Shown here in pieces: positions 10,633-54,601 of a DNA stretch of 64,000 nucleotides. Numbering within the stretch: position 1 is the first letter of the stretch; each line of letters opens with the position of its first letter. The DNA comes from Sphingopyxis sp. GTDB taxonomy: Bacteria > Pseudomonadota > Alphaproteobacteria > Sphingomonadales > Sphingomonadaceae. The notes beneath the pieces were generated by a model. The model was not told the DNA's origin, made no database searches, and saw only the letters and a list, made by a program, of their open reading frames with translations. Made by a program: the position numbers and the translations under genes. The stretch is taken from positions 70,073-134,072 of the forward strand of contig JAEMRT010000003.1 of assembly GCA_016463225.1 (NCBI GenBank). The letters are read 5' to 3'.

Positions 10633-10672
10633 ATCTCCCTGGACGCCGCCCACACCGCCACATCCCTCATGC

Positions 10673-17382: not shown

Positions 17383-17407
17383 CTACCGGTGGCGGCGGAC
17401 CCGACAA

Positions 17408-18007
17408 TTAGAAATCAGCAAAGCCCGTCAAAACGCGGAAATATATATTCGCCAACCTCATGCGCTCCTGCGGGGTCTCCTGAATATGGAGCGCATAGTA
17501 ACCGATCTGATGGAAATAGACGATCCTGGCTCGGACGAGTGCCTCATCCGCGTCATAGGCTGCCTCCCTGAAAAGGTCCGCGAAGGCGGTGATCCGCTCT
17601 TCGTCGACCTGATGCACGATGGCGGCCACGTCCGGTGATACCAGCGCCCAGTTGCGCACGGCGGTGTCGAAGCGTGGATCAAAATCTCGTTCCTCGATCC
17701 ACAGTGACGCCGCCGCGCGGAATCGTTCGGCGAGCGTGCCAGGGCCTCGGAGTGTGGCGATCAACGGTGCGGTATTGGTCTGGCGCCATTCATCCAACAG
17801 GAGGCCCAGCAGTTCACCGCGATCCTTGAAGCGCCAATAAAAGCCGCCACGGGTAACCCCGCATTCCTTGGCAATTCGGCCGATCTTGACCGCATCTATT
17901 CCATCCCGAACCAGAAGTGCGCGCGCGGCATCGAGCCAGTCCCGCGTCGACAGCGTCTCAATCAGATCCGTATCTTCGCCTTCGCTCAATGTTTTGAACC
18001 AATCCAA
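17408..18007 (-). CDS. TetR family transcriptional regulator
   Basis: A 199-residue regulator with the TetR HTH at about residues 20-70 (RIAKECGVTRGGFYWRFKDRGELL) and an all-helical ligand domain. It converges on the dimethylglycine dehydrogenase-like gene and lies about 60 bases downstream of the DddP-like gene on the same strand, so it may be the last gene of the MFS-M24-TetR unit. A repressor role for that unit is a fair guess. No obvious operator palindrome was found beside it. Confidence 0.87.
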   Translation of the reverse strand: MDWFKTLSEGEDTDLIETLSTRDWLDAARALLVRDGIDAVKIGRIAKECGVTRGGFYWRFKDRGELLGLLLDEWRQTNTAPLIATLRGPGTLAERFRAAASLWIEERDFDPRFDTAVRNWALVSPDVAAIVHQVDEERITAFADLFREAAYDADEALVRARIVYFHQIGYYALHIQETPQERMRLANIYFRVLTGFADF

Positions 18008-39327: not shown

Positions 39328-39330
39328 CGA

Positions 39331-40188
39331 TCAGTCCCGGAAGACGATGGTTTTGGTGGCGTTGATGAAGACGCGATCCTGAACATGATAGCGCACGGCC
39401 TGAGCCAGAACTCGCTGCTCGATATTGCGGCCCTTGCGCACCAGATCGTCGGGGCTGTCGTCGTGCGAAACAGGTTCGACATCCTGATGAATGATCGGAC
39501 CTTCGTCCAAGTGCTCGGTCACATAATGCGCGGTCGCTCCGATCATCTTCACGCCTCGGCGGTGCGCTTGATGATAGGGCTTCGCGCCCTTGAAGCCCGG
39601 CAAGAAGCTGTGATGGATGTTGATGCAGCGGCCCGAGAGAAATGATGCAAGATCGTCCGAGAGAATCTGCATGTACCGCGCGAGAATGATCAGCTCGGCG
39701 CCGAGCTCGTCGACGATCTCCTTGATCCGCCCCTCCTGTTGCGGTTTGGTGTCCGCGCTAATCGGCAGATGGTAATAGGGCACGTCCTCGATCCAGGATT
39801 TGATCTTTAGATGCTCCATCGGATGGTTGGAGATGATCCCGACGACATCCATGTCGATCTCCCCGATTCGGCTGCGATAGAGAAGGTCGCCAAGACAGTG
39901 ATCGAACTTGGAGACGAGGATCACTGTCTTGCGCCGGTCGTTTCGCGACCGGAGGCTCCAGCGCATATCGAACTGCCGCGCGGTCGCACCAAAGCTCTTG
40001 CGGAACGCTGCCCCCGCACCGTCGGGGAATTCGAGCGCAACGCGCATGAAAAATTGCCCAGTCTCCCGGTCGTCGAACTGCTGCGATTCCTTGATATTGG
40101 CTTCGACGTCGAAAAGCGCAGTGCTTACGGTAGAAACGATGCCCGGACGATTGGCACACGACAGAGTTAATGTTTGCTCTCCAGGCAC
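39331..40188 (-). CDS. purU: Formyltetrahydrofolate deformylase (copy 2)
   Basis: A 285-residue PurU with an N-terminal ACT domain (LSCANRPGIVSTVSTALF) and a hydrolase domain carrying CINIHHSFLPGFKGAKPY and LDEGPIIHQD. It is the first gene of the purU-folD unit. It releases formate and regenerates THF for the methyl-accepting reaction. The long 722-base region upstream should hold its promoter. Confidence 0.95.
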   Translation of the reverse strand: MPGEQTLTLSCANRPGIVSTVSTALFDVEANIKESQQFDDRETGQFFMRVALEFPDGAGAAFRKSFGATARQFDMRWSLRSRNDRRKTVILVSKFDHCLGDLLYRSRIGEIDMDVVGIISNHPMEHLKIKSWIEDVPYYHLPISADTKPQQEGRIKEIVDELGAELIILARYMQILSDDLASFLSGRCINIHHSFLPGFKGAKPYHQAHRRGVKMIGATAHYVTEHLDEGPIIHQDVEPVSHDDSPDDLVRKGRNIEQRVLAQAVRYHVQDRVFINATKTIVFRD

Positions 40189-40910
40189 ATCACGCTCCCA
40201 AAAATTGTTATGATTTATCCCGCGTCCCTGATCGGAACGCGCTGTTCATTGATCAGCCTAGCGCGCGTATCGGCATTTGGCAGCGCCGCGCGGCGGCTTT
40301 GATCCTTCCAATTTCCGGATAGTGCAGGAGAAGCCATTCGGAAGCGGGCCTCTGCCGGCCCGCCGGTTCCCGCGCAGCGTTGAATTTGGCCCGGCATGAG
40401 CGGCGCGTGGGCCGACGCCGAAGCTAGCTGCCCCTACGGCGCAGGGCCTGTTCGGCGATCGAACAGCATCTCGATCTCGAATTCGGTGCATGTAAATTGC
40501 GGATAAGAGGTCGGCAGCACGGGATCGTCCTGCCGACATACAGCGAAGGATTTGTATGTCAGAGCGTGGCGGTGCAGGCGTGTTCTGCGCCGACCTTTCG
40601 ACAAATTTAATAATGAAATTAAATGCTTATTCGCATATTTCAGCTGATTTGGGGCATATTGCGGAAGGGTGGGTTGTTCATTCGAGCAATTCCTGCTCGA
40701 TGAACAGCCCTGCGCGGACATGACCTTGGTCGGCGCGAAATTTGTATCCCCTCGATTATCCGATTTTCGAATATGGCCTATTCAGAAGCGGCCATGTTCA
40801 TCGGCAATGTTTGTTGTCATCCCTTTTGTGACCGCGGGCGGCTCAGACCGGAGCTGCGGCAACAATGAAATCGGCGCCGCGATAGAGACGGCACGTGGAG
40901 GGGATAGAGG
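40189..40910. promoter_or_regulatory. Long divergent promoter region between purU and TonB receptor
   Basis: No believable gene; the ORFs here (40215-40397, 40434-40721, 40669-40914) lack family features. The middle (about 40600-40660) is AT-rich compared with its surroundings and holds an inverted repeat TGAAAT (40614-40619) / ATTTCA (40637-40642) with inner ATGC/GCAT. TATTCAGAA at 40779-40787 lies 124 bases before the TonB receptor start and recurs in other promoters of the cluster. A GGAGGGG ribosome site precedes the receptor ATG. Confidence 0.5.
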
Positions 40911-43397
40911 ATGAATATTGGGCCTAATGGAGGCATCCGTGCTTTCTGCAATTTTTTGATGGCGGGTAGCGCTGTTGTCGCCTGTGGTTTTGTTGTGACG
41001 CCGGCAAGCGCACAGTCGACGACCGAGGTTGCGGCGCCGACGACGACCGAGCCCGCCGCTGAGGCGGCGCCCGAAACCGGGCAGAGCGCACCGGCTGCTG
41101 ATCCGCAGGCATCATCGACCGATTCCGGGGGCACGATCGGCGACATCGTGGTCACCGCTCGGCGCCGCTCCGAATCTCTCCAGAACACGCCCGTCGCAGT
41201 CTCGGCGGTCACCGCCGCGGCGCTTGAGGCTCGCGGCGCAACCGACATTTCGGCGATCGCCCAGTCGGTACCGAGCGTGACCTTCAATACAACCGCGGGC
41301 AACTCGGGGGCCAGCAATGCCGCCGTGGTCTTCATTCGCGGCATCGGTCAGGACGACTTTTTCCCCACGATCGATCCGGGCGTCGGCATCTATCTCGACG
41401 GCGTTTATGTGTCGCGCACGCTCGGGTCGGTTCTCGATACGGTCGATCTTGAGCAGATCGAAGTGCTGCGCGGGCCGCAGGGTACATTGTTCGGCAAGAA
41501 CACGATCGGCGGCGCCGTCCAGATCGCGACCAAGAAGCCGTCGGACACGTTTGAGGGCTATCTCGAGGCAACGACCGGCCGCTTCAACCGGATCGACGTC
41601 AAGGGAAGCGTGAACATTCCCTTCAGCGACACGTTCTTCGCGCGCTTCTCGGTCGCGACGCTGAACCGTGATGGCTATGTCACCATCCTTCAGAAGGACC
41701 CGGTCACCGGTGCGGTGTCGAAAGCCGACGCGGATAAACTTGGCGATATCTCGACCATGGCGGGTCGCGCCGCTGTGCGCTGGGAGCCCAGCTCGGCTTT
41801 CAGCGCAGACCTCAGCTTCGACTATACGGGCAAGCGCGAGCAGTCGTCAGGCAGTACATTGTTGGCTACGCAGCCGCTCGTTCCCGGAATTCCGACGAAC
41901 GATCCGAACTTCTTCCCGGCGAACGCTGCCACCCTTGGTGGCTTCTGGAACCTCATCCGGGCCGGCGGTGCGGGATGCAACCCGCTTGCCGGCGGCGATC
42001 CCTTCAACCAGTCCAACCCGGCGTGCTTCAACAATCAGTATGTCACGGGTAATCCGTATACGACCTTCTATGAGCCCAGCCGATCGCTCTCGGATCTCGA
42101 TCTTTGGGGTCTGACGGGTGTCCTCAACTGGGATGTTGCGCCTGACGTCAGCATCAAGTCGATCACTGGTTATCGCCACACCAAGTCGCACTTTATGCGC
42201 GACGACAATATGCCGCTGCATCTGCTGGAATTGGAGACCCGCCAGACCGCCGAGCAGATCAGCCAGGAACTCCAGTTCTCCGGCAAGGCGTTCGACAGCC
42301 ATCTCAACTGGCTGGTTGGTCTTTATTATTTCAACGAGAAGGTCGATTTCGACAATCCCGCCTGTTTCTCGTTCATTTGCACCGCGGTGCAAACGAAGCT
42401 CGATACGGATAGCTATGCGGCCTTCGCCCAGGGCACCTATGCGGTCGGCGACCGGACTAACATCACGGCCGGCCTTCGCTATACCAACGAGACCAAGCGT
42501 AACGATCCGGACAATTTCTACATCGATATCGGCTTCGGATTGCCGCCCTTCGCAGCCAACAACCCGAACCCCAACCCTGCGACGGTCATCGACAATCCCT
42601 CGAAGGTGCGTCTGCGCAATGTCTCGCCTATGGTGTCGATCGACCATCGCTGGTCGTCGACCGTCATGACCTATGTCTCGTTCTCGCAAGGGGTGAAGGG
42701 CGGTGGCTTTCAGCAACGCGTCATTTTGCCGCGGCTTCAACAGCCGACGTTCGGGCCGGAGAAGCTGACGTCTTATGAAATCGGCGCCAAGACCGACCTT
42801 TTTGATCGGCATGTCCGCCTGAACGTCGCGGCTTTCTGGTCGGACTACAAGGATCTGCAAATCACGGTATTCGATCCGAATTTCAGCATCGAACCGCTGC
42901 AGGTCAATGGAGGCACCGCACGCATCCGAGGCATCGAGGTCGAATCCACGATCAAGCCGATCGATGGCCTGACCGCGACGCTGGGCGGTAGCTACCTCGA
43001 CACCGAATATACGAGGATCGCGGCCAATGCGGCCATCCCGGCCAATGCCGTCCTGCCGTTCACGCCGAAATGGTCGGTCAGCGGTGGATTAAGCTATCAA
43101 TTTGCGGTGGGGAATGCCGGCACGCTCACGCTGCGCGGCGACTGGAACTATCGCAGCCGGGTGTTCTTCAACGCGCCGAATGATCCGATCATTTCGCAGC
43201 CCGGCTACCACACCGCGAATCTCGCGGCTACGTTCGAAACGCTGGACGAGCACTGGCGCATCACCGCCGGCGTGACGAACGTGACCGACAAGGCTTATCT
43301 CGCGTCGGGCTTCGCCGACCTGCGCAACTCATCCTTCGCCGATGGCGTCTATGGGCGTCCGCGCGAATGGTATCTGACAGCACGGTATTCCTTCTGA
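40911..43397 (+). CDS. TonB-dependent outer membrane receptor
   Basis: An 828-residue receptor. A signal peptide with a hydrophobic core (FLMAGSAVVACGFVVTPASAQ) is followed by an acidic/alanine-rich linker, a TonB box region (IGDIVVTARRRSESLQ), the plug (VEVLRGPQGTLFGKNTIGGAVQ) and the barrel ending REWYLTARYSF with a C-terminal Phe. It sits 30 bases ahead of the Rieske O-demethylase gene, likely in one operon, so it is a good candidate importer of the methoxylated aromatic. The plug most resembles the sphingomonad receptors used for organic substrates rather than siderophores. Confidence 0.93.
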   Translation: MNIGPNGGIRAFCNFLMAGSAVVACGFVVTPASAQSTTEVAAPTTTEPAAEAAPETGQSAPAADPQASSTDSGGTIGDIVVTARRRSESLQNTPVAVSAVTAAALEARGATDISAIAQSVPSVTFNTTAGNSGASNAAVVFIRGIGQDDFFPTIDPGVGIYLDGVYVSRTLGSVLDTVDLEQIEVLRGPQGTLFGKNTIGGAVQIATKKPSDTFEGYLEATTGRFNRIDVKGSVNIPFSDTFFARFSVATLNRDGYVTILQKDPVTGAVSKADADKLGDISTMAGRAAVRWEPSSAFSADLSFDYTGKREQSSGSTLLATQPLVPGIPTNDPNFFPANAATLGGFWNLIRAGGAGCNPLAGGDPFNQSNPACFNNQYVTGNPYTTFYEPSRSLSDLDLWGLTGVLNWDVAPDVSIKSITGYRHTKSHFMRDDNMPLHLLELETRQTAEQISQELQFSGKAFDSHLNWLVGLYYFNEKVDFDNPACFSFICTAVQTKLDTDSYAAFAQGTYAVGDRTNITAGLRYTNETKRNDPDNFYIDIGFGLPPFAANNPNPNPATVIDNPSKVRLRNVSPMVSIDHRWSSTVMTYVSFSQGVKGGGFQQRVILPRLQQPTFGPEKLTSYEIGAKTDLFDRHVRLNVAAFWSDYKDLQITVFDPNFSIEPLQVNGGTARIRGIEVESTIKPIDGLTATLGGSYLDTEYTRIAANAAIPANAVLPFTPKWSVSGGLSYQFAVGNAGTLTLRGDWNYRSRVFFNAPNDPIISQPGYHTANLAATFETLDEHWRITAGVTNVTDKAYLASGFADLRNSSFADGVYGRPREWYLTARYSF

Positions 43398-43427
43398 TCG
43401 ACAAATGAAGATGGCGGGGGAAGTGCG

Positions 43428-44483
43428 ATGGCATATCTAAGAAGCGCTTGGTATGTCGCCGCACTTTCCTCCGAAATCGAAACGGGAAAGATCGTAAGTC
43501 GCACGCTGATCGATATCCCGATGATCATCGTTCGCGATCGGAGCGGAACTCCAGCGGTGCTGGAGGACCGTTGTCCGCACCGGTTCGCGCCTCTCTCTTT
43601 GGGCGCAATGTGCGACGACAGCATCGAATGCGGCTATCATGGCATGCGCTTTGCGTTCGATGGCCGTTGCGTTGAAAATCCCACGCAACCCGACGAGCGG
43701 CTTCCCGACCGCGCCCGCGTCAAAACCTATCCCGCGATCGAGCGGTACGGCTTCATCTGGTTCTGGGCCGGCGAAGGGGATCCGGATCCCGAACTCATGC
43801 CCGACTTCCCGCAATATGAGAGCGAGGATTATGGGTTCGATACGGCCTACAAATTTATCGCCGGCAACTACCAGCTGCTTATCGATAATCTTCTCGATCT
43901 AAGCCATGCGCCATGGGTCCACAAAGGTCTGCTGGGCGATAAGAATACTATGGCCAACTGGGACTTTTCCTGGGATCAGGGGCCGCGACACATCATCGAT
44001 CGACGCTCCTTCCCAAATCGTCCCGCCGTCCCAGCCTGGGCAAAGGCTTATGGCGACGCCTTCGGATCTTTCGATGGAGCGATGGACCATTGGCAAGAAA
44101 CCTATTGGTATGCGCCGGCGAATATGCTGCTCGACGCGGGCCTGGTCATGCCCGGCGCGGCGCGAGGAACCGGGATCGACATCATCGGGCTCAATCTCAT
44201 GACGCCCGAAACGCAGACCACCACTCATTATTTCTACGGGATGGCCCACCAGTACCGCCATGAAGAGCGATGGGTTACCGACTTCTGGATGAATGCCGTC
44301 TTTCACGCCTTCGAAGACGATCGCCTCATGATCGAGGCGGTGCAGCGCAACATGGGCTCGGAGACCGATGTGGTTACGTTACGTCCGCACATCAACAAGG
44401 CTGACCAGACGGCCCTCATGGCAAGGCGGCACCTCGCAAAGCTCATCCATGAAGAGAATAAAGGTCTGCCAGCCAAGAGCTAG
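43428..44483 (+). CDS. Rieske O-demethylase oxygenase subunit (VanA/DdmC-like)
   Basis: A 351-residue Rieske mono-oxygenase alpha subunit of the VanA/dicamba-monooxygenase group, which oxidise O-methyl groups and release formaldehyde. Rieske ligands are Cys49/His51 and Cys68/His71, and iron ligands Asn154/Asp157/His160/His165 (NLLDLSHAPWVH) fall at the numbers I recall for dicamba monooxygenase; the third iron aspartate is about residue 297 (AFEDDR). No reductase or ferredoxin gene is adjacent. It probably shares an operon with the TonB receptor. The substrate is likely a methoxylated aromatic acid or phenol; ring hydroxylation or another demethylation is possible. Confidence 0.88.
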   Translation: MAYLRSAWYVAALSSEIETGKIVSRTLIDIPMIIVRDRSGTPAVLEDRCPHRFAPLSLGAMCDDSIECGYHGMRFAFDGRCVENPTQPDERLPDRARVKTYPAIERYGFIWFWAGEGDPDPELMPDFPQYESEDYGFDTAYKFIAGNYQLLIDNLLDLSHAPWVHKGLLGDKNTMANWDFSWDQGPRHIIDRRSFPNRPAVPAWAKAYGDAFGSFDGAMDHWQETYWYAPANMLLDAGLVMPGAARGTGIDIIGLNLMTPETQTTTHYFYGMAHQYRHEERWVTDFWMNAVFHAFEDDRLMIEAVQRNMGSETDVVTLRPHINKADQTALMARRHLAKLIHEENKGLPAKS

Positions 44484-44487
44484 CCGC

Positions 44488-45492
44488 TCACTCGCATTCA
44501 GCGGGAGCGGAACAGGACGAAGGGCAGGCCGCTCGAACCAGTTCGGTCTCGAGATTATGTTCGAGGCGGCAGTCCGAGATCAACGATCGAAGCCACATGT
44601 TGCCCGGATCGTGATCGTAGCGTTCGTGCCAATATTGCTTGACCTCGATGATCGGCAGATCAAGCTCCGCAGGCGGTGCGACGACCTTCATGTGTGGGGC
44701 CTTGATGCAGCGCGCGACCCAACGCGGGATTGTCAGGACGAGATCGGCGCAAAGCTCTGTTATGAGCGCGGTCACCATGAAATTCTCGGCCACGATGCGG
44801 ACGCGATCTTCCGGAATGATATCGAGGATGCGTTGCTCGGCCTCCTGATGGCCGTGGCTGTAGTAGCGGCCGTCGACGACAATATGATCGAGCGCCTTGA
44901 AGTCTGCGATGCTTAAAGACCCCGAGGTCGCCACCGATTGGGGGACGATGCAGACATAATCCTCGCGAAAGAGGGTCTGCTCCTTGATATTGGCATAGAG
45001 CGCCGGATAGCTTCCGACGGCAACATCGGCATATCCTTCCTCCAGATCCGCCACGAGTTTGTTCTTGCCGATCGTGACTGCTGTGAATCTGAGGAAGGGC
45101 GCGCGTTTCGCAGCTTGGTGCATCACCAGAGGCAAGATGCAATAATGGCCGAGGTCCGAAGCGGATATCCGGAAATTGCGCTGTGACGTTTCTGGATCGA
45201 ATTCGCGCCGTTCGCTCAGGCTGAAGCGGAATATGCGCAGCGCCTCCTCGATGTCCTTCGCGAGCGATTGCGCAACCGCTGTCGGAACCATGCCCTGCCG
45301 CGTCCGGATGAACAGCTGATCGTTGAAATGCTCGCGCAGCGTCTGTAGATTGCGACTGAGCGACGACTGGGGCAGTTCCAGTTCGTCAGCTGCCATGGTA
45401 ACGCTCTTCAGCCGCATAATGGCGTTGAAGACCGTAAGATGGAAAAAGGATAGGCTCGCCGCCCGATCCCGTCCGGATGCAAGGATATTCAT
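44488..45492 (-). CDS. LysR family transcriptional regulator
   Basis: A 334-residue LysR regulator. The HTH near residues 20-60 is LTVFNAIMRLKSVTMAADELELPQSSLSRNLQTL. The C-terminal extension is rich in Cys/Pro (ACPSSCSAPAECE). Its stop is 4 bases from the Rieske O-demethylase stop (convergent), and downstream of the metF operon on the same strand a terminator separates it. It is a likely regulator of the O-demethylation genes. TTGGATAT occurs twice upstream of its start (45549 and 45608), possible autoregulatory sites. Confidence 0.88.
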   Translation of the reverse strand: MNILASGRDRAASLSFFHLTVFNAIMRLKSVTMAADELELPQSSLSRNLQTLREHFNDQLFIRTRQGMVPTAVAQSLAKDIEEALRIFRFSLSERREFDPETSQRNFRISASDLGHYCILPLVMHQAAKRAPFLRFTAVTIGKNKLVADLEEGYADVAVGSYPALYANIKEQTLFREDYVCIVPQSVATSGSLSIADFKALDHIVVDGRYYSHGHQEAEQRILDIIPEDRVRIVAENFMVTALITELCADLVLTIPRWVARCIKAPHMKVVAPPAELDLPIIEVKQYWHERYDHDPGNMWLRSLISDCRLEHNLETELVRAACPSSCSAPAECE

Positions 45493-45913
45493 CGATAGCT
45501 CTCCCGCGGCGGCACCCCGTTTTCACTGATGCGCGTCATTTTCACTTATTGGATATCCATATTCCGGGATTAGCAAGTTCGTAATTGGGATCGAGTCTAT
45601 CCGGTTTTTGGATATATCGCGAAAAGGGCGCTCTAACAGGCGCCGGTCGGGATCGAGATCCTAACCCAAATTACCACGAAATGTGGTGGTTGGTGGGGTA
45701 TTTCTCGAGCAAATGAGCGGCCGCTCTTGTCTGAATGCTCCGCCTCGGAAATTGGCTTTGCGGATCAGCCGCCGCTCGGATCGAGCGGAGCGATGCGGTG
45801 TATATCCGTATCGCGCAAATTGGTCGCGGCCTCGGATACAGGGTGCGCGGTGGCTGTGGAGACGGCTCGCGGTGCCGCGGCTCTTAAGGAGAGGCGGTCA
45901 ATATTGAAAAGAA
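45493..45913 (-). promoter_or_regulatory. Promoter region of the lysR gene
   Basis: This stretch between the lysR start and the metF terminator has no supported gene; ORFs at 45683 and 45727 are low-quality. The lysR-proximal part (45540-45620) is AT-rich relative to its surroundings and contains TTGGATAT at 45549-45556 and 45608-45615, the first within the palindrome GGATATCC. These may be regulator half-sites. Confidence 0.4.
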
Positions 45914-45941
45914 AAGGGGGCAACCGCCAGATTGCCCCCTT
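45914..45941 (-). terminator. Rho-independent terminator of the O-demethylase-metF operon
   Basis: AAGGGGGCAA and TTGCCCCCTT form a perfect 10-base-pair stem around an 8-base loop, 25 bases after the metF stop. Read on the minus strand it is followed by TTTTCTTTTC, a U-rich tract. This marks the end of the 48282-45966 transcript. Confidence 0.92.
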
Positions 45942-45965
45942 GCTTAATCAGTTCGAAGGCGCGCC

Positions 45966-46838
45966 TTAGCGGGCGGACGCTCCATAATTTTCGTCGATAT
46001 ATCGTGCGGTATCGACGAGCGACCCGAATGGGTAGAAATGCAGCAAAACCTCGCCATGGCGCGAGGGATCGCAGCGTTCGGCCAGCGTCTCGATGAGACG
46101 CTCGGGTCCGGCGGTTGTGAACAGCTGCGTGATCGACGTGCCATACTTCATCATGACCTTGGCCGATGCGCCGACACCGCAACGCGCGGCGAAGCGGATC
46201 AGCTTCTTGACGCTTGCGGGGCCGGGGACGCCGACGCGAACGGGGGCAGTGATGCCGTCCTGGCGGATGCGCTCGAGCCAGGCCAGGACGGCGTCGGCGT
46301 CAAATGCGAACTGCGTCATGATTTCAGCCTGTTTGCCCTGTTCGGCCAGTGCCGCAATCTTGTCTTTCATAGCTTGCGCGAGCTTCGCATTATCGATGTC
46401 CGGATGGCCTTCGGGATAGCCCGAAATGCCCACCATCTCGATGCCCGCCGTGTCGAGGAGCCCGCTGCGGATCACCGCGAGCGCATCTTCATACGGGCCC
46501 ATCGGGCTGGGCGGATCGCCGGCGATGACGAAAGCACGTTCGATGCCGACCTCGTCGCGCAGCGCATTGAGGAACGCCATGAGGTCCTCGCGAGAGAGGA
46601 CCCGGCGTGCCGAGATATGGGGAACGGGGACGAAGCCGAGCGCTTTCACTGCCTTGGCGGCGGCGACGCGAGCTGGCATTTCCTCACCCGGCAGATAGGT
46701 GACCGAGATGGGCGTACCCGGTGGGATCAGCGGCGCGGCGTCGTCGAGGCTCTCGACATCCTTTGCCGTCATTTCGAGCGAGAAGGATCGAACCAGGTTC
46801 AGCTCAGGGGCTGCCTGGCGCGCAACAGCGAGTGTCAT
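45966..46838 (-). CDS. metF: 5,10-methylenetetrahydrofolate reductase
   Basis: A 290-residue FAD-dependent TIM-barrel enzyme of the MetF family. In this setting it would run in the oxidative direction, from 5-methyl-THF to 5,10-methylene-THF. Family features include an N-terminal FSLEMTAKD, VTYLPGEEMP, VPHISARRVLSRED and AFVIAGDPPSPMGPY, and GISGYPEGHPD. It is the second gene after the LigM/Dmt-like O-demethylase with 70 bases between, the same pairing known from LigM and Dmt systems in sphingomonads. The product is then handled by FolD and PurU. A biosynthetic role in methionine supply is less likely given the operon. Confidence 0.93.
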   Translation of the reverse strand: MTLAVARQAAPELNLVRSFSLEMTAKDVESLDDAAPLIPPGTPISVTYLPGEEMPARVAAAKAVKALGFVPVPHISARRVLSREDLMAFLNALRDEVGIERAFVIAGDPPSPMGPYEDALAVIRSGLLDTAGIEMVGISGYPEGHPDIDNAKLAQAMKDKIAALAEQGKQAEIMTQFAFDADAVLAWLERIRQDGITAPVRVGVPGPASVKKLIRFAARCGVGASAKVMMKYGTSITQLFTTAGPERLIETLAERCDPSRHGEVLLHFYPFGSLVDTARYIDENYGASAR

Positions 46839-46908
46839 GGTGCGGCCTTTCGAAAAATGGCCGGTCTCGCGGGCCCTGGGAGGAGGTGCGAGACCGGCAG
46901 GAGAGAGC

Positions 46909-48282
46909 TCAGTCTTTCTTGATGATCTTTTCGAAATAGGGCGCCGGGGCGACCGTGACGCGAACCTCGCGCAGCGTGTTGCGCTCGATCGTTGGACGCG
47001 GCATCGTTTCCTCGCCCCACATCAGGGTCAACTGGGTGCCGGGTTCCGCGTGCTCCATATCGACGACCGCGAGCGTGATGAACTCGTTCGCATTGGCCGA
47101 GAAGCCCGAGAACTGACCCACGCCGATGTGGCGGCCGTTTTTCTGGACGTCGTCGATGTGGAAGGTCGAATAGGCGGCGAGTGGGAAATTGACGAAGCGG
47201 GCCGGCGGATCGGCATAGAGCGAGTCATGGATGACCTTCATCAGGTCGTCGTGGTTCCAGACGAGCGTCACCTTCTTGCGGCGCTGGTTAGCGGCTCTCT
47301 CGGCGAGAGCTGCCTTGCCGATGAAGTCGTCGCGCTTCGGGTCGATAAAAGGACCGTATCCGACTTCGATCGGGTCCATATAATAGTCGCGGATGTCATC
47401 GGAGTAGAAGCTGCCACCCATCGAGCCGAGTGTTTCGAGCGACTGCGGCGGAAGCCATTCGCGGAAACCCTTCATCTCGTCGGTGTGATAGACGGCCGGA
47501 ACCGGATGCGGCATCCAGCCCGATTCCATCGACGTCGTCGGATAGGCCAGCGAGCCGACCTTCTTGATGTTGTACTTCTCGCCGACTTCCATCAGGGCGT
47601 CCATGACGGCTTCCTGATCTTCCCAGGGTCCGAACATCTCGAAGCCGGGTTCGCCGGCCATGCCGTGACGCAGCGCGCGGACCTTCTTGCCGCGGATCTC
47701 GAAGCTGCCGATACCGAAGAAGGGAATTTCGGGCAGCGTTCCGTCGGTGACTTCTTGCATCAGGGCAAGCGCGTGCGGCCCCTGAATCTGGTAGATCCAA
47801 ATCCGCGGTTCGCCGGGACGCAGGCTGACGGTCTCGTCGCGGTCGATTTCGACATCATAGCCGCCCGTTTCGGCATGATACTGCGTCCAGTCGCTGATAA
47901 CCGGGGGGCCGACGACGCGGAAATGGTCCTGCTCGAGATGGAAGACGATGCCGTCGCCGATCAGATAACCATCGGGGCTCGCAGCGATCAACTGCTTGCC
48001 GCGATTGACCGGGAACGTCGCCATCTTGGTAAGGCCGACCTTCTGCAACACCTTGAGCGCATCGGGGCCCTTGAGGTAGAGATCGGTCATGTGGAAGGAC
48101 TGGTTGAGCAGCGCGACGCCCTCTTTCCAGGCCCGCTGTTCGTCGCGCCAGTTCGTATATTCCGGCGCTGCGACCGGGAATTGGTAAGGGCCGAGCTGTG
48201 AACTGCGCAACAACTTGACCGGACCGCCAACCGCTTGGAGAACTTCCTCGAGATTGCGGTACTTGAAGAGTGGGCTTTTCAT
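46909..48282 (-). CDS. THF-dependent O-demethylase, LigM/DesA/Dmt type
   Basis: A 457-residue GcvT-family protein, close in length to LigM, DesA and dicamba methyltransferase Dmt, which transfer an aromatic O-methyl group to tetrahydrofolate. The N-terminal opening YRNLEEVLQAVG...LLRSSQLGPYQFP and NWRDEQRAWKEGVALLNQSFHM are typical, as are RHGMAGEPGFEMFGPWED and SLAYPTTSMESGWMPHPVPAVY. It lacks the FAD domain of the other GcvT fusions here. AAAGGA precedes the ATG. It is the first gene of an operon with metF. Vanillate, syringate, dicamba or a chloro-methoxyphenol are candidate substrates; DMSP demethylase (DmdA) is a more distant alternative. Confidence 0.87.
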   Translation of the reverse strand: MKSPLFKYRNLEEVLQAVGGPVKLLRSSQLGPYQFPVAAPEYTNWRDEQRAWKEGVALLNQSFHMTDLYLKGPDALKVLQKVGLTKMATFPVNRGKQLIAASPDGYLIGDGIVFHLEQDHFRVVGPPVISDWTQYHAETGGYDVEIDRDETVSLRPGEPRIWIYQIQGPHALALMQEVTDGTLPEIPFFGIGSFEIRGKKVRALRHGMAGEPGFEMFGPWEDQEAVMDALMEVGEKYNIKKVGSLAYPTTSMESGWMPHPVPAVYHTDEMKGFREWLPPQSLETLGSMGGSFYSDDIRDYYMDPIEVGYGPFIDPKRDDFIGKAALAERAANQRRKKVTLVWNHDDLMKVIHDSLYADPPARFVNFPLAAYSTFHIDDVQKNGRHIGVGQFSGFSANANEFITLAVVDMEHAEPGTQLTLMWGEETMPRPTIERNTLREVRVTVAPAPYFEKIIKKD

Positions 48283-48364: not shown

Positions 48365-48389
48365 ATCGATAGATCATAGATATATCGAT
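48365..48389. promoter_or_regulatory. Inverted repeat ATCGATA-N11-TATCGAT upstream of the O-demethylase
   Basis: Perfect 7-base arms separated by 11 bases lie about 85-105 bases upstream of the O-demethylase ATG. The spacing suggests a dimer binding two successive major grooves. The region is AT-rich, so some self-complementarity is expected by chance. Confidence 0.45.
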
Positions 48390-48938
48390 AATCTTGCTAT
48401 ATTATATTTGTTACTAATGGGCGATCACGCATGTTATACGTGCTCGGCCAAATCAATGTTTCGTATCGATAGAGGAAGGCCGCGGACTTGTGGAGAACGC
48501 GGCGCGGATAGCCCTAATCCGCAGCGCGGATTATCCGCAGAGCTGACGAAACGGCTGGAAAGGCCAAGGGGCAGCCCAACTGCGCAGTTTTGCCACGGTC
48601 CGATGACCCCAGCGCGGCTTAGCGCTCGGCTGTCGACCAATTGGCCTCACATTGCGAATGCCAAGAAAAGCTGGGGCGGTCGCTTTGCAGATTTGCGCAG
48701 CGCCCAGTTCAGGCGCGAGACCGGGCTGTACTCGGCGGGGCGCGGTACGTACCCCATGCTGCACGTTTTCGGCCGCGCGCCGACAACAATCGCCAATTGC
48801 GATTTTCCCTATTCTGAATCCGAGTTTGAATATTCCGCCATTGGCGGCATTCCCGCGTCCGCGAGCGCGCCGCGAAGATCATCTCCGCGAGAGTGGCCCG
48901 GTCTCGCCCAACCCAAATATTCGAGAAAGAGGATGACT

Positions 48939-49214
48939 ATGCTGTTCCTGAGACTTTGCATCGACAAACCGGATGCCCTCGAGCTGCGCAATCAGCATCG
49001 GGACGACCATCGCGCCTACCTAGGCTCGGGCGTCGCCAAAATTGTCCAAGCGGGCCCGCTTCTCGACGAAAGCGGCGATATGGCTGGCAGCATGATCATC
49101 GTGGACGCAGAATCGCTCGGCGATGTTCAAGCTTTTCACGATGATGACCCCTTCACCAAGGTCGGATTGTTCGACAAGGTTCTCCTGTACAAATGGGACC
49201 GCCATATCGGCTGA
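48939..49214 (+). CDS. YCII-family protein (copy 1), possible dehydrochlorinase
   Basis: A small cytoplasmic YCII protein of 91 residues with a ferredoxin-like fold. The conserved histidine is in RDDHRAYLGSG, and GPLLDESGDMAGSMIIVDAES is the YCII core. One characterised member, TftG, eliminates HCl from 5-chlorohydroxyhydroquinone in 2,4,5-T degradation. The start at 48939 (MLFLRLC) has AGAGG 6 bases upstream; the 268-residue track ORF is rejected. It lies just before a glutathionyl-hydroquinone reductase gene and 2.3 kb from hydroxyquinol dioxygenase, a TftG/TftH-like pairing that suggests a chlorinated hydroxyquinol intermediate. Confidence 0.85.
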   Translation: MLFLRLCIDKPDALELRNQHRDDHRAYLGSGVAKIVQAGPLLDESGDMAGSMIIVDAESLGDVQAFHDDDPFTKVGLFDKVLLYKWDRHIG

Positions 49215-49303
49215 AACTAGCTGCCGTCGGGGGGAGAGGCCTCCGACGGCCATTGCTCGATCGAGGCGTTGCACGAACGACGTGCGGGAGAAGGGTTGCC
49301 ACC

Positions 49304-50269
49304 ATGGCCGATGTAAAGCAGCTTAAATCTCGATTCGAGGTTAGCACGACGAGCGGGCGTTTCGTCCGCAAGGACGCCGCGTTCCGTAACTGGATCACGG
49401 CCGACGGCAGCCCGGGGCCGAGCGGTGAAGGCGGTTTCGCGGCCGAGCCCGGCCGATATCATCTCTACATCTCGGCTGCATGCCCATGGGCGCACCGCAC
49501 CCGGATCTTCCGCAAGATCAAAGGACTGGAGGCGATGATCTCCATGTCCGTCACTCACTGGTTCATGGGAGGCTTCGGCTGGACCTTCGAGCCGGGCGGC
49601 GGCGTCGTTCCCGATCCGATTCTGGGCGCCGTATTCGTCTCCGAAATCTATCAGGCGGCCGATTCTCAATATGACGGGCGGTTCACCGTTCCGCTGCTCT
49701 GGGATCGGAAGAGGGCAACGATCGTCAGCAATGAATCGTCCGAAATCATCCGGATGTTCAACTCCGCCTTCGACGGCGCCGGAGCGATCGCCGGCGATTA
49801 TTATCCAGCCGAGCATCGCGCTGAAATCGATGCCATCAACCTGCGAGTCTATGAGACGCTGAACAATGGCGTCTACAAAGCAGGCTTCGCGGCAACCCAG
49901 GAAGCCTATGAAGAAACGGTCGTTCCGCTCTTCGAGACGCTGGACTGGCTCGAAGAGAGACTAACGCGGCAACGCTATCTCGTCGGAGACAGCGTAACCG
50001 AAGCGGACTGGCGGCTCCTCCCCACGCTGCTCCGATTTGACGCGGTCTACGTCGGGCACTTCAAATGCAATCTGCGCCGCCTCATCGATTATCCGTCGCT
50101 CTCGGCCTATACGCGCGAGCTTTACCAGTGGCCGGGCATACGCGAGACGGTCGATTTCGATCATATCAAACGACACTATTTTGAGAGCCACAAGTCGATC
50201 AATCCGCTCGGTGTCGTGCCGCTTGGGCCGCTTATCGATTTCGACGCCCCGCATCACCGCGATCGATGA
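49304..50269 (+). CDS. pcpF: Glutathionyl-hydroquinone reductase, PcpF type
   Basis: A Xi-class GST of 321 residues that reduces glutathionyl-hydroquinones back to free hydroquinones. The catalytic cysteine is Cys60 in ISAACPWAHRTRIFR, and the C-terminal domain contains DWLEERLTRQRYLVGDSVTEADWRLLPTLLRFD, both hallmarks of the PcpF/YqjG family. The start at 49304 (MADVKQLKS) follows a GGGAGAAGGG ribosome site. PcpF repairs the dead-end adducts formed by PcpC in pentachlorophenol degraders; pcpC is 47 kb to the left, so this copy may serve either pathway, or more generally protect from quinones made in the hydroxyquinol route. Confidence 0.93.
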   Translation: MADVKQLKSRFEVSTTSGRFVRKDAAFRNWITADGSPGPSGEGGFAAEPGRYHLYISAACPWAHRTRIFRKIKGLEAMISMSVTHWFMGGFGWTFEPGGGVVPDPILGAVFVSEIYQAADSQYDGRFTVPLLWDRKRATIVSNESSEIIRMFNSAFDGAGAIAGDYYPAEHRAEIDAINLRVYETLNNGVYKAGFAATQEAYEETVVPLFETLDWLEERLTRQRYLVGDSVTEADWRLLPTLLRFDAVYVGHFKCNLRRLIDYPSLSAYTRELYQWPGIRETVDFDHIKRHYFESHKSINPLGVVPLGPLIDFDAPHHRDR

Positions 50270-50283
50270 CGACGCGCCTCGTC

Positions 50284-51183
50284 TCAGCGGTGGCGCAGGC
50301 GGCGATAGCGCGCAGGCGTTTCTCCGGTCTGACGGCGAAAGATCCCGGTCAGATGCTCCTGATGTGAAAAGCCGCAAATGTCAGCGATTTCTGCAATCGG
50401 TGCGTGAGTCCAGAGCAACAAGTGTCTCGCGCGCTCGACCCTGCGCCGTAGGACATATTGATGCGGGGAAACGCCCGTTGCGCGCCGGAACTGCCGGGTA
50501 AAGTGGGTGACACTGAGACCCGCGATCGCGCTCATCTCCTCTAGGCTGTGCCGCTGATCAAGCGTGTCCTCGATAAAGGCCCTTACCGGCTCGATCGCCC
50601 GGGGATCGAAGGGACCAGCCAACAGGCTCGCCCTGCCAGATGCGCCCGACCGCCGGAGCATACGCCCCGCGATGAGGCGAGAAAGCTGGTCGATCAGCAG
50701 GGTCCCGGTCTCACCCGATTGCGCTGCCGCGGCAGCCTCGAGGGCGAGCTGCCCGATCACCTCGTCATGTTCGCCCAATAAGGGCTCTATCGATACATCC
50801 TTGCCGCCCTCGATGAACGCCTGCGCGACGTCGTCGACCACCGATTGCCGGACATAGAGGTGGAGCGTGTCCACCGCCCCCTCCAGTTCGACGCGGAAAG
50901 TCTGGCCCGCCGGCCATAGGAACAGGCCACCGGGATCGACTTTCTTGCGCACCTCCCGGCCACCCACAGCGCCATGCACGGTTACGGGACCACCGAGATG
51001 CATAACAATCAGATGGGCTCTTGTGGCGGGCACTTCGGCAAGGAAGGGCTTCTCTAGTTGCTCCGAAACGAAGAGCGATGTCCATCCAAGGGCCTCGCTC
51101 GACCCGTAGGTTCGTCCTGCCGAGCGGTCGAGAATACCATGGGTCTGCTCGCGGTGAAATGGACGCACATTGGTGTCTAGCAC
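50284..51183 (-). CDS. AraC family transcriptional regulator
   Basis: An AraC regulator with a cupin-like N-terminal domain and two C-terminal HTH motifs (LEEMSAIAGLSVTHFTRQFRRATGVSPHQYVLRRR and IAEIADICGFSHQEHLTGIFRRQTGETPARYR). I prefer a GTG start at 51183, with GAGAGG upstream and a 299-residue product typical for the family; ATGs at 51249 and 51354 in frame are alternatives. It is divergent from hydroxyquinol dioxygenase with 345 bases between, so it is the likely activator of the HQD-YCII-GST-GST-nitroreductase operon. It converges closely on pcpF. Confidence 0.87.
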   Translation of the reverse strand: MLDTNVRPFHREQTHGILDRSAGRTYGSSEALGWTSLFVSEQLEKPFLAEVPATRAHLIVMHLGGPVTVHGAVGGREVRKKVDPGGLFLWPAGQTFRVELEGAVDTLHLYVRQSVVDDVAQAFIEGGKDVSIEPLLGEHDEVIGQLALEAAAAAQSGETGTLLIDQLSRLIAGRMLRRSGASGRASLLAGPFDPRAIEPVRAFIEDTLDQRHSLEEMSAIAGLSVTHFTRQFRRATGVSPHQYVLRRRVERARHLLLWTHAPIAEIADICGFSHQEHLTGIFRRQTGETPARYRRLRHR

Positions 51184-51528
51184 CGGATATTTCCTCTCCG
51201 TACCACTAAGTCGCCGGTGGCGCCCGGTCGTCGCCCTGCTTTTTGTCATGCAGCTCGGCCCGCCAGAATAGTCGATGATGCGAAGTCCGGCGCACGGCAA
51301 AACCGGATTCTTCCAATCACTTTTTCGGATGGGAATTCGGGCCGGCAGCCGCACGCCGCCGATTTTCGGAAGAGGATGGCCGGTCTACGTGAGCGCGATC
51401 GCCAATGCGATGCCGACAAGAACGCTGATCCGGGGCGCTGACGATGGTCTGAACTTGCAGGACAGGAGCAATTTCCCCGGCGTACGCCTCGCCGGAACAA
51501 TGTCTCAGCTTCGGAGCAAGGTCTGTCC
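51184..51528. promoter_or_regulatory. Divergent promoter region between araC and hydroxyquinol dioxygenase
   Basis: No supported gene. This should contain the promoters of the AraC gene and of the five-gene hydroxyquinol operon. I saw no strong palindrome, which fits AraC sites, usually asymmetric direct repeats. An AAGG site lies 8 bases before the dioxygenase ATG. Confidence 0.4.
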
Positions 51529-52398
51529 ATGCGCAATCTCGACGAATTCACGATCACACAGGAAGCTTTGCGCAGACTCGAGGAAACCCCCGATCCGCGC
51601 CTGAAGCAGATCATGGCCTCTCTGATCCGGCACCTTCATGACTTCGCGCGCGACGTCAAATTGACAGAAGAAGAATGGCTGCAAGGCATTCTCTTCCTGA
51701 CCCGCACCGGTCATCTCTGCACCGACGTCCGGCAGGAATTCATCTTGCTATCCGATACGCTCGGGCTCTCGCAACTCGTCGTCGCCCAAAGCCACAGCCG
51801 CCCCGAAGACGTTTCGGAGCAGACCGTTTTCGGACCTTTTCACGTCGAGGGTGCGCCGAAGCTGCCAACCCATGGATGCGACCTTGCCGCGGGGATTGAG
51901 GGTGAACCGCTCTTCGTGACAGCGCAGGTTCTCGCGAACGGCGAGCCGGTAGCCGACGCCGAAGTCGATATCTGGCACGCCGATGCCGAAGGCTTTTACG
52001 ACGTCCAAGAAGACGGGTGGGCAGTCGACGATGCAAGGCTTCGGGCCACCTTCCGCACCGATGCTGACGGAAAACTAAGCTTCAAGACGATCCTTCCCAA
52101 AAGCTATCCGATACCAACCGATGGGACCGTTGGGGAGATGCTTGCAGCGACGAAGCGCAGCCCGATGCGTCCGGCGCACATTCACTTCAAAATCGACAAA
52201 GAGGGCTTCGATCCGCTGATCACGCATGTGTTCCGCGAGGATGACGATTATCTCGACTCCGACGCTGTTTTTGGCGTTCGAGGATCGTGCATCGGCGCCT
52301 ATGAGCCGCACGAGCGCGGTACGACGCCCTTCGGCGAGGAGGCCGAGGATCGTTTTTACACGCTCGACTCCCGCTTCGTCCTTCATCCTTTGTCCTGA
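51529..52398 (+). CDS. Hydroxyquinol 1,2-dioxygenase (intradiol)
   Basis: An Fe(III) intradiol dioxygenase that opens hydroxyquinol (1,2,4-trihydroxybenzene) to maleylacetate. The N-terminal helical linker domain (about 1-95) is followed by the beta-sandwich catalytic domain. Iron ligands are Tyr157 (GFYDVQ), Tyr193 (KSYPIP), His217 and His219 (RPAHIHF), the 2-Tyr/2-His set. The 289 residues and HSRPEDVSEQTVFGPFHVEGAP, typical of hydroxyquinol rather than catechol dioxygenases, support the call. Maleylacetate would need maleylacetate reductase, absent from this window, before PcaIJ and the thiolase. It leads an operon with YCII, two GSTs and a nitroreductase. Confidence 0.9.
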   Translation: MRNLDEFTITQEALRRLEETPDPRLKQIMASLIRHLHDFARDVKLTEEEWLQGILFLTRTGHLCTDVRQEFILLSDTLGLSQLVVAQSHSRPEDVSEQTVFGPFHVEGAPKLPTHGCDLAAGIEGEPLFVTAQVLANGEPVADAEVDIWHADAEGFYDVQEDGWAVDDARLRATFRTDADGKLSFKTILPKSYPIPTDGTVGEMLAATKRSPMRPAHIHFKIDKEGFDPLITHVFREDDDYLDSDAVFGVRGSCIGAYEPHERGTTPFGEEAEDRFYTLDSRFVLHPLS

Positions 52399-52410
52399 CG
52401 CGCAGCGGTC

Positions 52411-52719
52411 ATGTATTTCGTCATCTACGCCCTCGATCGCCCGGATGCCGGCGACCTGCGTGAAAAGACGCGTCCGGCGCACAGGGAATATCTCCATGGC
52501 TCCGATCTTCCTGTTCGTCTCCGGCTCGCTGGGCCGCTTCTCGCCGACGACGGCGCGACGATGATCGGCTCGTTGATCATCGTCGAGGCCGACGACAGCG
52601 CCAGCGTGGAGGCCTTTTCAGCCGCCGATCCTTACCGACTCGCTGGACTGGTGGGCAGCGTCACCATCCGCCCGTGGAACTGGACGACGGGAAATCGCGA
52701 TGCGGAGGCGATATCATGA
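52411..52719 (+). CDS. YCII-family protein (copy 2)
   Basis: A second YCII protein of 102 residues, starting 12 bases after the dioxygenase. The histidine is in TRPAHREYLHGS, and LAGPLLADDGATMIGSLIIVEADD matches the YCII core. It is clearly different in sequence from copy 1. TftG-like dehydrochlorination, or isomerisation of a hydroxyquinone, is a reasonable guess. Its stop overlaps the GST start by ATGA. Confidence 0.87.
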   Translation: MYFVIYALDRPDAGDLREKTRPAHREYLHGSDLPVRLRLAGPLLADDGATMIGSLIIVEADDSASVEAFSAADPYRLAGLVGSVTIRPWNWTTGNRDAEAIS

Positions 52720-53342
52720 CCATCGACCTTTACACCTGGAGCACACCCAATGGGCGCAAGGTCTCGATCATGCTCGAGGAGCTTGGCGCGTCCTATCAAG
52801 TCCATCCAATCGACATCACTAAGGACGAGCAATTCGCGCCCGCTTTTCTCGCGATCAATCCGAACAACAAGATTCCCGCGATCGTGGACGCGCAGGGACC
52901 AGCAGGGAAGCCCATTGTCGTCTTCGAGTCCGGCGCAATCCTCCTCTACCTTGCGCGCAGGTTTGCTAGCCCACTCTTGCCTGAGGACGAGCGCCGCCAG
53001 GCGGAAGTGCTCCAATGGCTCATGTTCCAGATGGGCGGCATCGGGCCGATGTTCGGTCAACTGCATCACTTCCGGCGCTACGCGCCGCACGAAACATACG
53101 GGCTTGGCCGGTATGAAAAGGAGGTCCATCGCCTCTACGGCGTGATGGATCGCCTTCTTGCCGACAGGCCGTACCTAGGCGGCGACGATTACTCGATAGC
53201 CGACATTGCGACATACCCTTGGATCGCGCGCTTCCCGCTCCATGGCCTCGAATGGGCACAGGTCCCCAACGTTCAGCGATGGTACGATGCGTTAAGCGGA
53301 CGGCCGGCGGTTATCCGCGGCATGGCAATCCCGGCGGCATGA
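52716..53342 (+). CDS. Glutathione S-transferase (Nu/YfcG-like)
   Basis: A 208-residue soluble GST. The N-terminal thioredoxin-like domain (LYTWSTPNGRKVSIMLEELG, then NPNNKIPAIVD and FESGAILLYLA) matches the Nu-class/YfcG group, where a Thr/Asn pair replaces the catalytic Tyr/Ser. The all-alpha C-terminal domain ends in GDDYSIADIATYPW. It may reduce or conjugate a quinone or haloaromatic intermediate with glutathione. The ATG at 52716 overlaps the YCII stop, so coupling is certain at the DNA level. Confidence 0.9.
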   Translation: MTIDLYTWSTPNGRKVSIMLEELGASYQVHPIDITKDEQFAPAFLAINPNNKIPAIVDAQGPAGKPIVVFESGAILLYLARRFASPLLPEDERRQAEVLQWLMFQMGGIGPMFGQLHHFRRYAPHETYGLGRYEKEVHRLYGVMDRLLADRPYLGGDDYSIADIATYPWIARFPLHGLEWAQVPNVQRWYDALSGRPAVIRGMAIPAA

Positions 53343-53349
53343 GGACGCC

Positions 53350-53973
53350 ATGTTGAGACTCCTCGGTCGCGCCTCCTCGGCTAATGTGCAGAAAGTCGCG
53401 TGGCTGCTCGACGAAATGGAGATCGCCTTCACTCGCGAGAATTACGGCGGGGAGTTCGGCGGCAACCGCTCCGCGGAATATCTCCGCCTCAATCCCAATG
53501 GCGTCGTACCCGCCCTCGTCGATGGCGACGCCGTCATATGGGAATCCAACACGATTCTTCGCTATCTTGCTAACCGATATGGCCCCACGCCTTTCTATCC
53601 GGAGGTCCCGGAAGTTCGCGCCGCGTGTGAATGCTGGATGGACTGGCAGCTCGGTACGCTCAATCTCTGCATGACCCCGCTTTATATCGGCCATGTTCGA
53701 ACGCCACCCGACCAGCGCGACGAAGGCGCTCTCGAGCGCCACCATGCAAGGGCCGCCTCGCTCTTCGGCATATTGGATGAAGCACTTTCGGATCGGCCGT
53801 TCCTCGCGGGAAGCAATCCGACCCTGGCCGAGATCTGCACCGCGATCTTTGCCTATCGCTGGTATGAACTCGCGCTCGATACGAGAGGGGTAAACCCCAA
53901 TCTGCGACGCTGGTTCGATGCGATCGCCAGCCGCCCGAAATTTCAGAAGCACGTGATGATTGGGCTTTCCTGA
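53350..53973 (+). CDS. Glutathione S-transferase (theta/beta-like)
   Basis: A 207-residue GST. The N-terminal domain shows [20 protein letters not shown] with a Ser/Asn at the glutathione site, and [32 protein letters not shown]. The C-terminal domain keeps [11 protein letters not shown]. It is distinct from the preceding GST and starts 7 bases after it. Dechlorination, isomerisation or glutathione conjugation are possible; dehalogenating GSTs of sphingomonads have this general form. Confidence 0.88.
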
Positions 53974-54010
53974 AAAGCCGAAAATTCGATTCCAAAAGGA
54001 GATATTGCCT

Positions 54011-54601
54011 GTGACAATGATTGGCGCCCAAGCGGCGAATGCGCTGTTCCTCGACGCCCGCTCACACAATGGCTGGCAGGATACGCCCGTGTCGGACGAG
54101 GAGCTTCAGGCCGCCTATGACGTCGCCAAATGGGGAGCTACATCGATGAACTGCCAGCCGATGCGCCTGGTGTTCCTGCGCAGCCTGGAGGCTAAGGAAA
54201 AACTGAAGCCTGCGCTGATGCCCGGTAATGTCGACAAGGCGATGAGCGCCCCCGTCGTAGCGATCGTCGCCCACGATCTTCGCTTCCATGACCGGCTTGC
54301 CGATCTCTTTCCCCACAATCCGGCGGCCGGGGCGATGTTCGCCAGCAACGATGGGCTCGCCGCCGCGACGGCGTTTCGCAACGGCTCGCTGCAAGGTGCC
54401 TATTTCATCATGGCGCTGCGCGCGATCGGTCTCGATGTAGGACCCATGTCCGGCTTCGATCCACAGCAGGTCGATGCCGCATTCTTCGCCGGGACGTCCT
54501 TGCGATCCAATTTTCTTCTCGGGATCGGACACGGCGACAGCTCTCGGCTCTTCGAACGCCTGCCGCGCCTCAGTTTCGAGGAGAGCACCCGTACCTTGTA
54601 A
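54011..54601 (+). CDS. RutE-like nitroreductase family flavoprotein
   Basis: An FMN/NAD(P)H-dependent nitroreductase-family protein of 196 residues, the same length as E. coli RutE (malonic semialdehyde reductase). [36 protein letters not shown] and [16 protein letters not shown] are RutE hallmarks. A GTG start at 54011 is chosen because GGAG lies 9 bases before it; the in-frame ATG at 54017 is 15 bases away. As the last gene of the hydroxyquinol operon it may reduce a quinone, an enone such as maleylacetate, or an aldehyde. No other rut genes are present, so pyrimidine use is unlikely. Confidence 0.88.

Follow-up and report, generated by a model that had tools for sequence, protein, structure and literature searches.

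The YCII family (PF03795) is large, and very few functions of its members are known; to our knowledge, TftG of Burkholderia phenoliruptrix AC1100 (PDB 4LBH, 4LBI and 4LBP), a dehydrochlorinase, is the only member that has been tested enzymatically. TftG converts 5-chlorohydroxyquinol into hydroxybenzoquinone, and a reductase then returns benzenetriol for ring cleavage (PMC3975901). The His-Asp dyad of TftG is cited as required (PMC7641849), and PnpX1, encoded in the p-nitrophenol operon, has been named a YciI protein (PMC6063337). Here, we describe two YCII genes, YCII1 and YCII2, that bracket a glutathionyl-hydroquinone reductase gene and a hydroxyquinol 1,2-dioxygenase gene in a 64,000-nucleotide stretch of Sphingopyxis sp. 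(the window, positions 70073-134072 of the 143 kb contig JAEMRT010000003.1, from an assembly of 5.6 Mb that is 96% complete with 7% contamination). From sequence comparisons, we propose that both proteins may have hydroxyquinols or hydroxybenzoquinones as substrates, in a side branch that leaves a pathway for chlorohydroquinones, a reading to which we give a probability of roughly 40%.

YCII1 (48939-49214, + strand) encodes a protein of 91 amino acids with a DABB-like fold that matches the Pfam YCII profile with 59.1 bits (6e-16), and YCII2 (52411-52719, + strand), located in the dioxygenase operon, one of 102 amino acids (65.0 bits, 8.8e-18), the curated cut-off being 24 bits. An earlier note on this DNA had placed two YCII genes of quite different sequence around a PcpF-type gene and a hydroxyquinol dioxygenase; coordinates, Pfam matches and gene order all agree with this, and the two proteins share 43% identity over 87 amino acids. 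No further YCII gene was found in the 5.6 Mb assembly. In a sample of 121 genomes from the same family as the host, half carried YCII, mostly as a single gene, so the presence of two within 3.8 kb is unusual, and the window offers two natural YCII paralogues in one host.

The dioxygenase gene (51529-52398, + strand), coding for an intradiol enzyme whose nearest relatives of known structure are 1TMX (1.3e-75), PnpC (1.2e-72) and the 6-chlorohydroxyquinol dioxygenase 8R2X (3e-68), is followed after 12 bp by YCII2, two genes for glutathione S-transferases (GSTs) and one for a RutE-like flavoprotein, with the stop codon of YCII2 and the start of GST A overlapping as ATGA. The operon that the earlier note assigned to YCII2 was thereby supported, but the separate promoter unit that it gave to YCII1 stays unproven: no promoter match above chance was found for YCII1 when compared with shuffled sequences. 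An AGAGG motif lies 6 nucleotides upstream of the YCII1 ATG, and the reductase gene begins 89 bp after YCII1 on the same strand, the two being separated by a GC-rich hairpin whose folding was not clearly better than that of shuffles.

TftG was the best PDB match by sequence of both YCII1 (43% identity) and YCII2 (36%). It was also their best fold match in the structure comparison that the earlier note had proposed, with template modelling (TM) scores to 4LBP of 0.89 for the predicted model of YCII1 (predicted local distance difference test score of 96) and 0.78 for that of YCII2. Both models match 4LBP and 1MWQ and show a ferredoxin-like alpha/beta fold with a predicted His-Asp site, and in the alignment Asp9, Arg17, His24, the Gly-Pro and the Asp-Pro of TftG are retained in both proteins. 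The setting of TftG is similar too, being a hydroxyquinol pathway with a dioxygenase and a maleylacetate reductase; in contrast, no HpaB-type hydroxylase (of the TftD, HadA or TcpA kind) was found in the genome of the window.

The association of YCII with the dioxygenase extends to other genomes. Among the 80 closest hydroxyquinol dioxygenase loci, sampled as one genome per species, 25 carried YCII within 10 kb, with 26 copies in 1.40 Mb, all of them (26/26) on the dioxygenase strand. From the sphingomonad background (~94 hits in 121 genomes of ~3.4 Mb) some 0.3 copies would be expected in 1.40 Mb, although this figure is a rough guide, since the background comes from another order and a different profile than the loci. 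The same-strand pairing gives a concrete reaction space for the YCII proteins. A RutE-like reductase was present in 16 of the 80 loci, 9 of them with YCII too, and a glutathionyl-hydroquinone reductase in only one. The trio of dioxygenase, YCII and RutE-like reductase recurs in 9 Burkholderiales loci, mostly of Comamonadaceae.

Chlorinated hydroxyquinols are plausible in this host because PcpA and a PcpC-like dehalogenase are encoded on the same contig. The former, a 2,6-dichlorohydroquinone 1,2-dioxygenase (233-1195, + strand), matches PDB 4HUZ (2e-205, 88% identity), and the latter, a putative tetrachlorohydroquinone reductive dehalogenase of GST fold (1528-2313, + strand), is 75% identical to a homologue from Rhizorhabdus dicambivorans. 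They are followed by pcaJ and pcaI (- strand) and pcaR and pcaF (+ strand) of the 3-oxoadipate lower pathway (4403-7845), in an order conserved with R. dicambivorans, and the only maleylacetate reductase gene found in the genome is located at positions 66715-67755 of the contig. Regarding the gene between the two YCIIs (49304-50269, + strand), the only copy in the genome, its product belongs over its full length to the glutathionyl-hydroquinone reductase (PcpF/YqjG) family, with matches to YqjG (PDB 3R3E, 1.6e-119) and to 4FQU (7.8e-115, 60% identity), which we take to be PcpF. The family implied by the PcpF label of the earlier note was therefore correct, but the protein is not closer to PcpF, as it scores 402.7 bits to YqjG versus 387.3 to 4FQU.

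The contig thus resembles the PcpF-PcpC-PcpA-PcpE pathway of Sphingobium chlorophenolicum in its PcpA, reductase, PcpC-like GST and maleylacetate reductase, with pcaIJF and an IclR regulator common to both. It differs from it in the extra hydroxyquinol dioxygenase and the two YCIIs, and in that no PcpB was found. No hydroxylase of PcpB length, which we take to be 538 amino acids, was detected in the genome; the four strong FAD_binding_3 proteins, of 371-432 amino acids, are interpreted as PobA, UbiH and two further monooxygenases. Instead, a tetrahydrofolate (THF)-dependent O-demethylase, accompanied by folate genes, appears to replace PcpB as the entry step.

This O-demethylase (46909-48282, - strand), of the GcvT-like LigM/DesA family, is encoded 656 bp from YCII1 on the opposite strand and is the only copy in the genome. 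It matches LigM (5X1I, 4e-125) and NCBIfam DesA (7e-152), and falls below the NCBIfam cut-offs for both DesA and LigM. Next to it lies a metF-like methylene-THF reductase gene (45966-46838, - strand; TIGR00676, below cut-off; 82% to the R. dicambivorans homologue), and folD and purU for the oxidation of one-carbon (C1) THF (38449-40188, - strand) and pabB and folC for folate supply (7845-10607, + strand; TIGR00553 and TIGR01499) were all above their NCBIfam cut-offs. Along the whole contig, metF, two folD, three purU, pabB and folC were found, which by annotation make up a full set for channelling methyl groups via tetrahydrofolate.

In R. dicambivorans, a single block (1762-17619) contains pcaF, pcaR, pcaI, pcaJ, an orphan gene (69%), the demethylase (78%), metF (82%), a PcpF-type reductase (75% to 4FQU), the PcpC-like gene (75%) and a TonB receptor, with PcpA (87%), folD and purU on the other strand. 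Its counterparts in the window lie at 233-10607 and 38449-48282. The third contig of this genome was identical to plasmid NZ_CP023451 over the 3 kb compared, and a search of 401 genomes of the host's family detected the PcpC-like gene in two of them, the host and R. dicambivorans. Two further demethylases of R. dicambivorans have in-frame starts that give 466 and 475 amino acids, the published lengths of Dmt and Dmt50 (PMC9404685). As these copies fit Dmt and Dmt50, the PcpC-linked copy would be a third enzyme, and by sequence it appears to be neither dicamba demethylase; we know of no study of it. Behind the 466-amino-acid copy lie metF, purU and folD, which is presumably also the arrangement behind dmt. 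The demethylase of the window shares with LigM, DesA, Dmt and Dmt50 its family and its metF, purU and folD partners, but has only 39-42% identity to the paralogues fitting Dmt and Dmt50 and represents a separate lineage linked to PcpC and PcpF.

A chlorine-free role could also be proposed for these genes, in which the demethylase would produce hydroxyquinol from methoxyhydroquinone, derived from lignin-type methoxy compounds, and YCII, reductase and dioxygenase would handle the product. The closeness of a LigM-like demethylase to YCII1 and the nearby metF, folD, purU, pabB and folC fit such a role, as do the Rieske oxygenase and formaldehyde dehydrogenase found near a 61%-identical dioxygenase in Paraburkholderia aromaticivorans. 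This explanation was favoured early on account of LigM/DesA, metF, purU and folD, but it was weakened by PcpA, by the maleylacetate reductase and by the R. dicambivorans cluster, where the same demethylase stands in one string with the chlorohydroquinone genes PcpF and PcpC, and we now regard it as unlikely.

With respect to chlorinated substrates, we tentatively interpret the contig and the R. dicambivorans cluster, with slightly less confidence than the role proposed for the YCIIs, as a native, aerobic route for the breakdown of chlorinated hydroquinone methyl ethers from wood-decay fungi, in which the O-demethylase would feed PcpC, PcpA and PcpF, and the YCIIs and the dioxygenase would salvage hydroxylated by-products. 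Gene identities and order, invariant residues, the predicted fold, single-copy status and conservation across genomes were read directly, and we infer from there all the reactions and the substrate of the following route. Tetrachloro-4-methoxyphenol, a fungal product that occurs in forest litter (PMC6299022), would be a candidate natural substrate. A chlorinated methoxyphenol of this drosophilin A type would be O-demethylated by the 46909-48282 product to a chlorohydroquinone, the PcpC-like enzyme would strip chlorines, PcpA would open the ring, and maleylacetate reductase and pcaIJF would complete the route. Chlorohydroquinones autoxidise, and the resulting quinones react with glutathione (PMC6247019). 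A fraction of the chlorohydroquinone would thus be lost to quinones, whose glutathione adducts could be repaired by the 49304-50269 reductase, and the addition of water to these quinones would give (chloro)hydroxyquinols. YCII2 would tautomerise the hydroxyquinol and, if this is chlorinated, eliminate HCl to form hydroxybenzoquinone, which the RutE-like flavoprotein, the GSTs or both would return to hydroxyquinol for cleavage by the dioxygenase to maleylacetate. YCII1 may work in the same way on a related compound that the reductase helps to form. Both YCIIs would be cofactor-free acid-base enzymes, relying on His24, on Asp9 and on the aspartate of the Asp-Pro motif. This branch of YCII, reductase and dioxygenase would correspond to the steps performed by TftG, hydroxybenzoquinone reductase and benzenetriol dioxygenase (PMC3975901). 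In short, YCII1 and YCII2 probably help to process chlorinated or oxidised hydroxyquinols, whose source is possibly natural fungal chloro-methoxyphenols.

If this interpretation is true, the enzymes of the pentachlorophenol pathway would have a natural source in the native ether pathway. The demethylase-PcpF-PcpC string would then provide a testable answer to the role of PcpC and PcpA before pentachlorophenol existed, as well as a tie between fungal organochlorines and their bacterial turnover. A literature search gave no account of a THF-dependent route by which tetrachloro-4-methoxyphenol is broken down aerobically, although one may have been published elsewhere.

Several observations weigh against the action of the YCIIs in a chlorohydroquinone side branch. 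The PcpC name of 1528-2313 depends on what we take to be the PcpC sequence, and PcpA, the PcpC-like gene and the maleylacetate reductase gene are ~47-52 kb away from the YCII operon, with no shared motif or operator found among the upstream regions of both parts of the contig. Sites of the form ATTC-N7-GAAT, presumably the PcpR-type operator, were also absent from the contig, where none were expected above chance. The absence of an entry hydroxylase is not proven, given the completeness (96%) and contamination (7%) of the assembly, and the R. dicambivorans block contains neither YCII nor hydroxyquinol dioxygenase; the YCII-dioxygenase genes of the window would therefore be an added branch, not needed for the core route. 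At the protein level, the GAGTGTDDK loop insertion of TftG is missing from YCII1 and YCII2 in the alignment. Furthermore, in a tree built from 84 YCII domains (96 columns), TftG partners a YciI of P. aromaticivorans (99/96) whereas the YCIIs of the window fall in another clade (86/91), within which YCII1 joins a second dioxygenase-linked clade only weakly and on a long branch (89/78). Finally, YCII is also found beside hydroxyquinol dioxygenase in chlorine-free pathways such as that of p-nitrophenol (PMC6063337), so the association does not depend on chlorine. The earlier suggestion of TftG-like proteins that remove chlorine consequently stands for the best sequence and fold match, the retained Asp9, His24 and Asp-Pro, and the PcpA and PcpC-like genes on the contig, but not for the clade or the loop insertion; dechlorination by these YCIIs is possible from their sequences but is not implied by family membership.

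The same tree bears on a rival explanation, nearly as probable in our view as the main one, in which the YCIIs would be general helpers of hydroxyquinol pathways and not dehalogenases, accelerating the tautomerisation of hydroxybenzoquinone or that of 3-hydroxymuconate, the product of ring cleavage, to maleylacetate. The closest partner of YCII2 in the tree is the YciI from plasmid pSHV3 of Sphingobium herbicidovorans (100/88; 56% identity), and PnpX1 and one YciI of the tandem pair on C. necator pBB2 join next (99/78); both YCIIs of the window belong to the dioxygenase-linked clade that lacks TftG. PnpX1, which presumably speeds such a tautomerisation in the p-nitrophenol pathway, is encoded like YCII2 directly after hydroxyquinol dioxygenase (pnpC1C2DECX1X2 operons) and has 43% identity to it; it differs in its chlorine-free pathway, and in the pPNP1 copy examined neither a GST pair nor a RutE-like gene follows it. 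YCIIs accompany the dioxygenase there and in further loci in which no dehalogenase of LinD type was recognised, and muconolactone isomerase-like enzymes belong to the same fold family. On the other side, PcpA and the PcpC-like gene make chlorinated substrates expected on this contig, and TftG, the only enzymatically tested YCII that we know of, is a dehydrochlorinase.

The position of YCII1 is less clear. YCII1 and YCII2 may remove different chlorines, as the earlier note suggested, but what their sequences show is an origin in two different clades. Since the other pBB2 YciI groups with YCII1, pBB2 and the window each have one YCII per clade in one hydroxyquinol locus, with the reservation that the placement of YCII1 is uncertain. 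In contrast to YCII2, YCII1 does not directly follow the dioxygenase and lies beyond the reductase gene. It might be unrelated to aromatics, a displaced relative of the ordinary YciI of alphaproteobacterial chromosomes (for instance the TsaD-GpsA-YciI-EVE copy), leaving only YCII2 as catabolic. Its best identity pairing (50%) is indeed with a TsaD/GpsA/EVE-linked YciI, its tree position is weak, and the genome has no YCII beyond the two of the window. However, YCII1 adjoins the reductase gene, is divergent from the demethylase and is placed by the tree, albeit weakly, among the dioxygenase-linked YCIIs, which makes this displacement quite improbable. No TsaD, GpsA or EVE neighbours were found near the four sphingomonad YCIIs most similar to those of the window.

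In addition to these genes, the YCII locus encodes an AraC-family regulator (50284-51249, - strand; Pfam HTH_18), divergent from the dioxygenase. Behind YCII2, GST A (52716-53342, + strand) is YfcG/Nu-like (NCBIfam PRK13972-type, 5e-58, below cut-off) and GST B (53350-53973, + strand) matches Pfam GST_N/GST_C; this pair recurs in three of the loci compared, including that of pSHV3. The RutE-like nitroreductase-fold flavoprotein (54017-54601, + strand; NF003768, 282.7 bits, cut-off 152) is a candidate (hydroxy)quinone reductase. Plasmid pSHV3 of S. herbicidovorans MH presents the YciI-GST-GST-nitroreductase order of window positions 52411-54601 with identities of 56, 65, 55 and 73%, of which the last covers only 64 amino acids. 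In contrast to the window, its segment (5693-7820) lacks the dioxygenase, is preceded by IS1247 and has the nitroreductase split into two frames, and is read as a mobilised, probably decayed copy.

A plasmid of P. aromaticivorans (9480-12876) carries a TftG orthologue (74%) beside a dioxygenase that, with 61% identity, was the closest to that of the window among plasmid records. Gentisate genes are found nearby and the Rieske oxygenase and formaldehyde dehydrogenase further up, and no chlorophenol-specific gene was recognised in the plasmid stretch that was read.

At lower coordinates than the metF-like gene, the window contains a TonB-dependent receptor and a DdmC-like Rieske oxygenase (40911-44483, + strand; DdmC PDB 3GB4, 8.8e-49) and a LysR-type regulator (44488-45492, - strand), recognised from its translation. 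Dicamba was considered as a substrate in view of the DdmC-like Rieske oxygenase and the Dmt-type demethylase; for the demethylase it was dismissed, since other copies in R. dicambivorans are the ones that fit Dmt and Dmt50. A LigM arginine, R122 in what we take to be its numbering, is replaced by proline in the demethylase of the window; this was uninformative, as the arginine is missing from the two copies that fit Dmt and Dmt50 as well. Beside pcaJ, an orphan protein (3005-4129, - strand) with no Pfam or NCBIfam match has 69% identity to the R. dicambivorans product of 5311-6348, in the same position, and might be a pathway enzyme or a user of methyl-THF. Between 14986 and 34761, apparent genes for glycine betaine, dimethylglycine and sarcosine demethylation were detected (Rieske oxygenase, sarcosine oxidase-like, formaldehyde dehydrogenase-like, folD and purU), so that the contig is rich in C1 transfer. 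Finally, the palindrome ATCGATAGATCATAGATATATCGATAATCT lies at 48365-48394, upstream of the demethylase start, as a putative LysR-type operator, and its 25-base core occurs once in the window.

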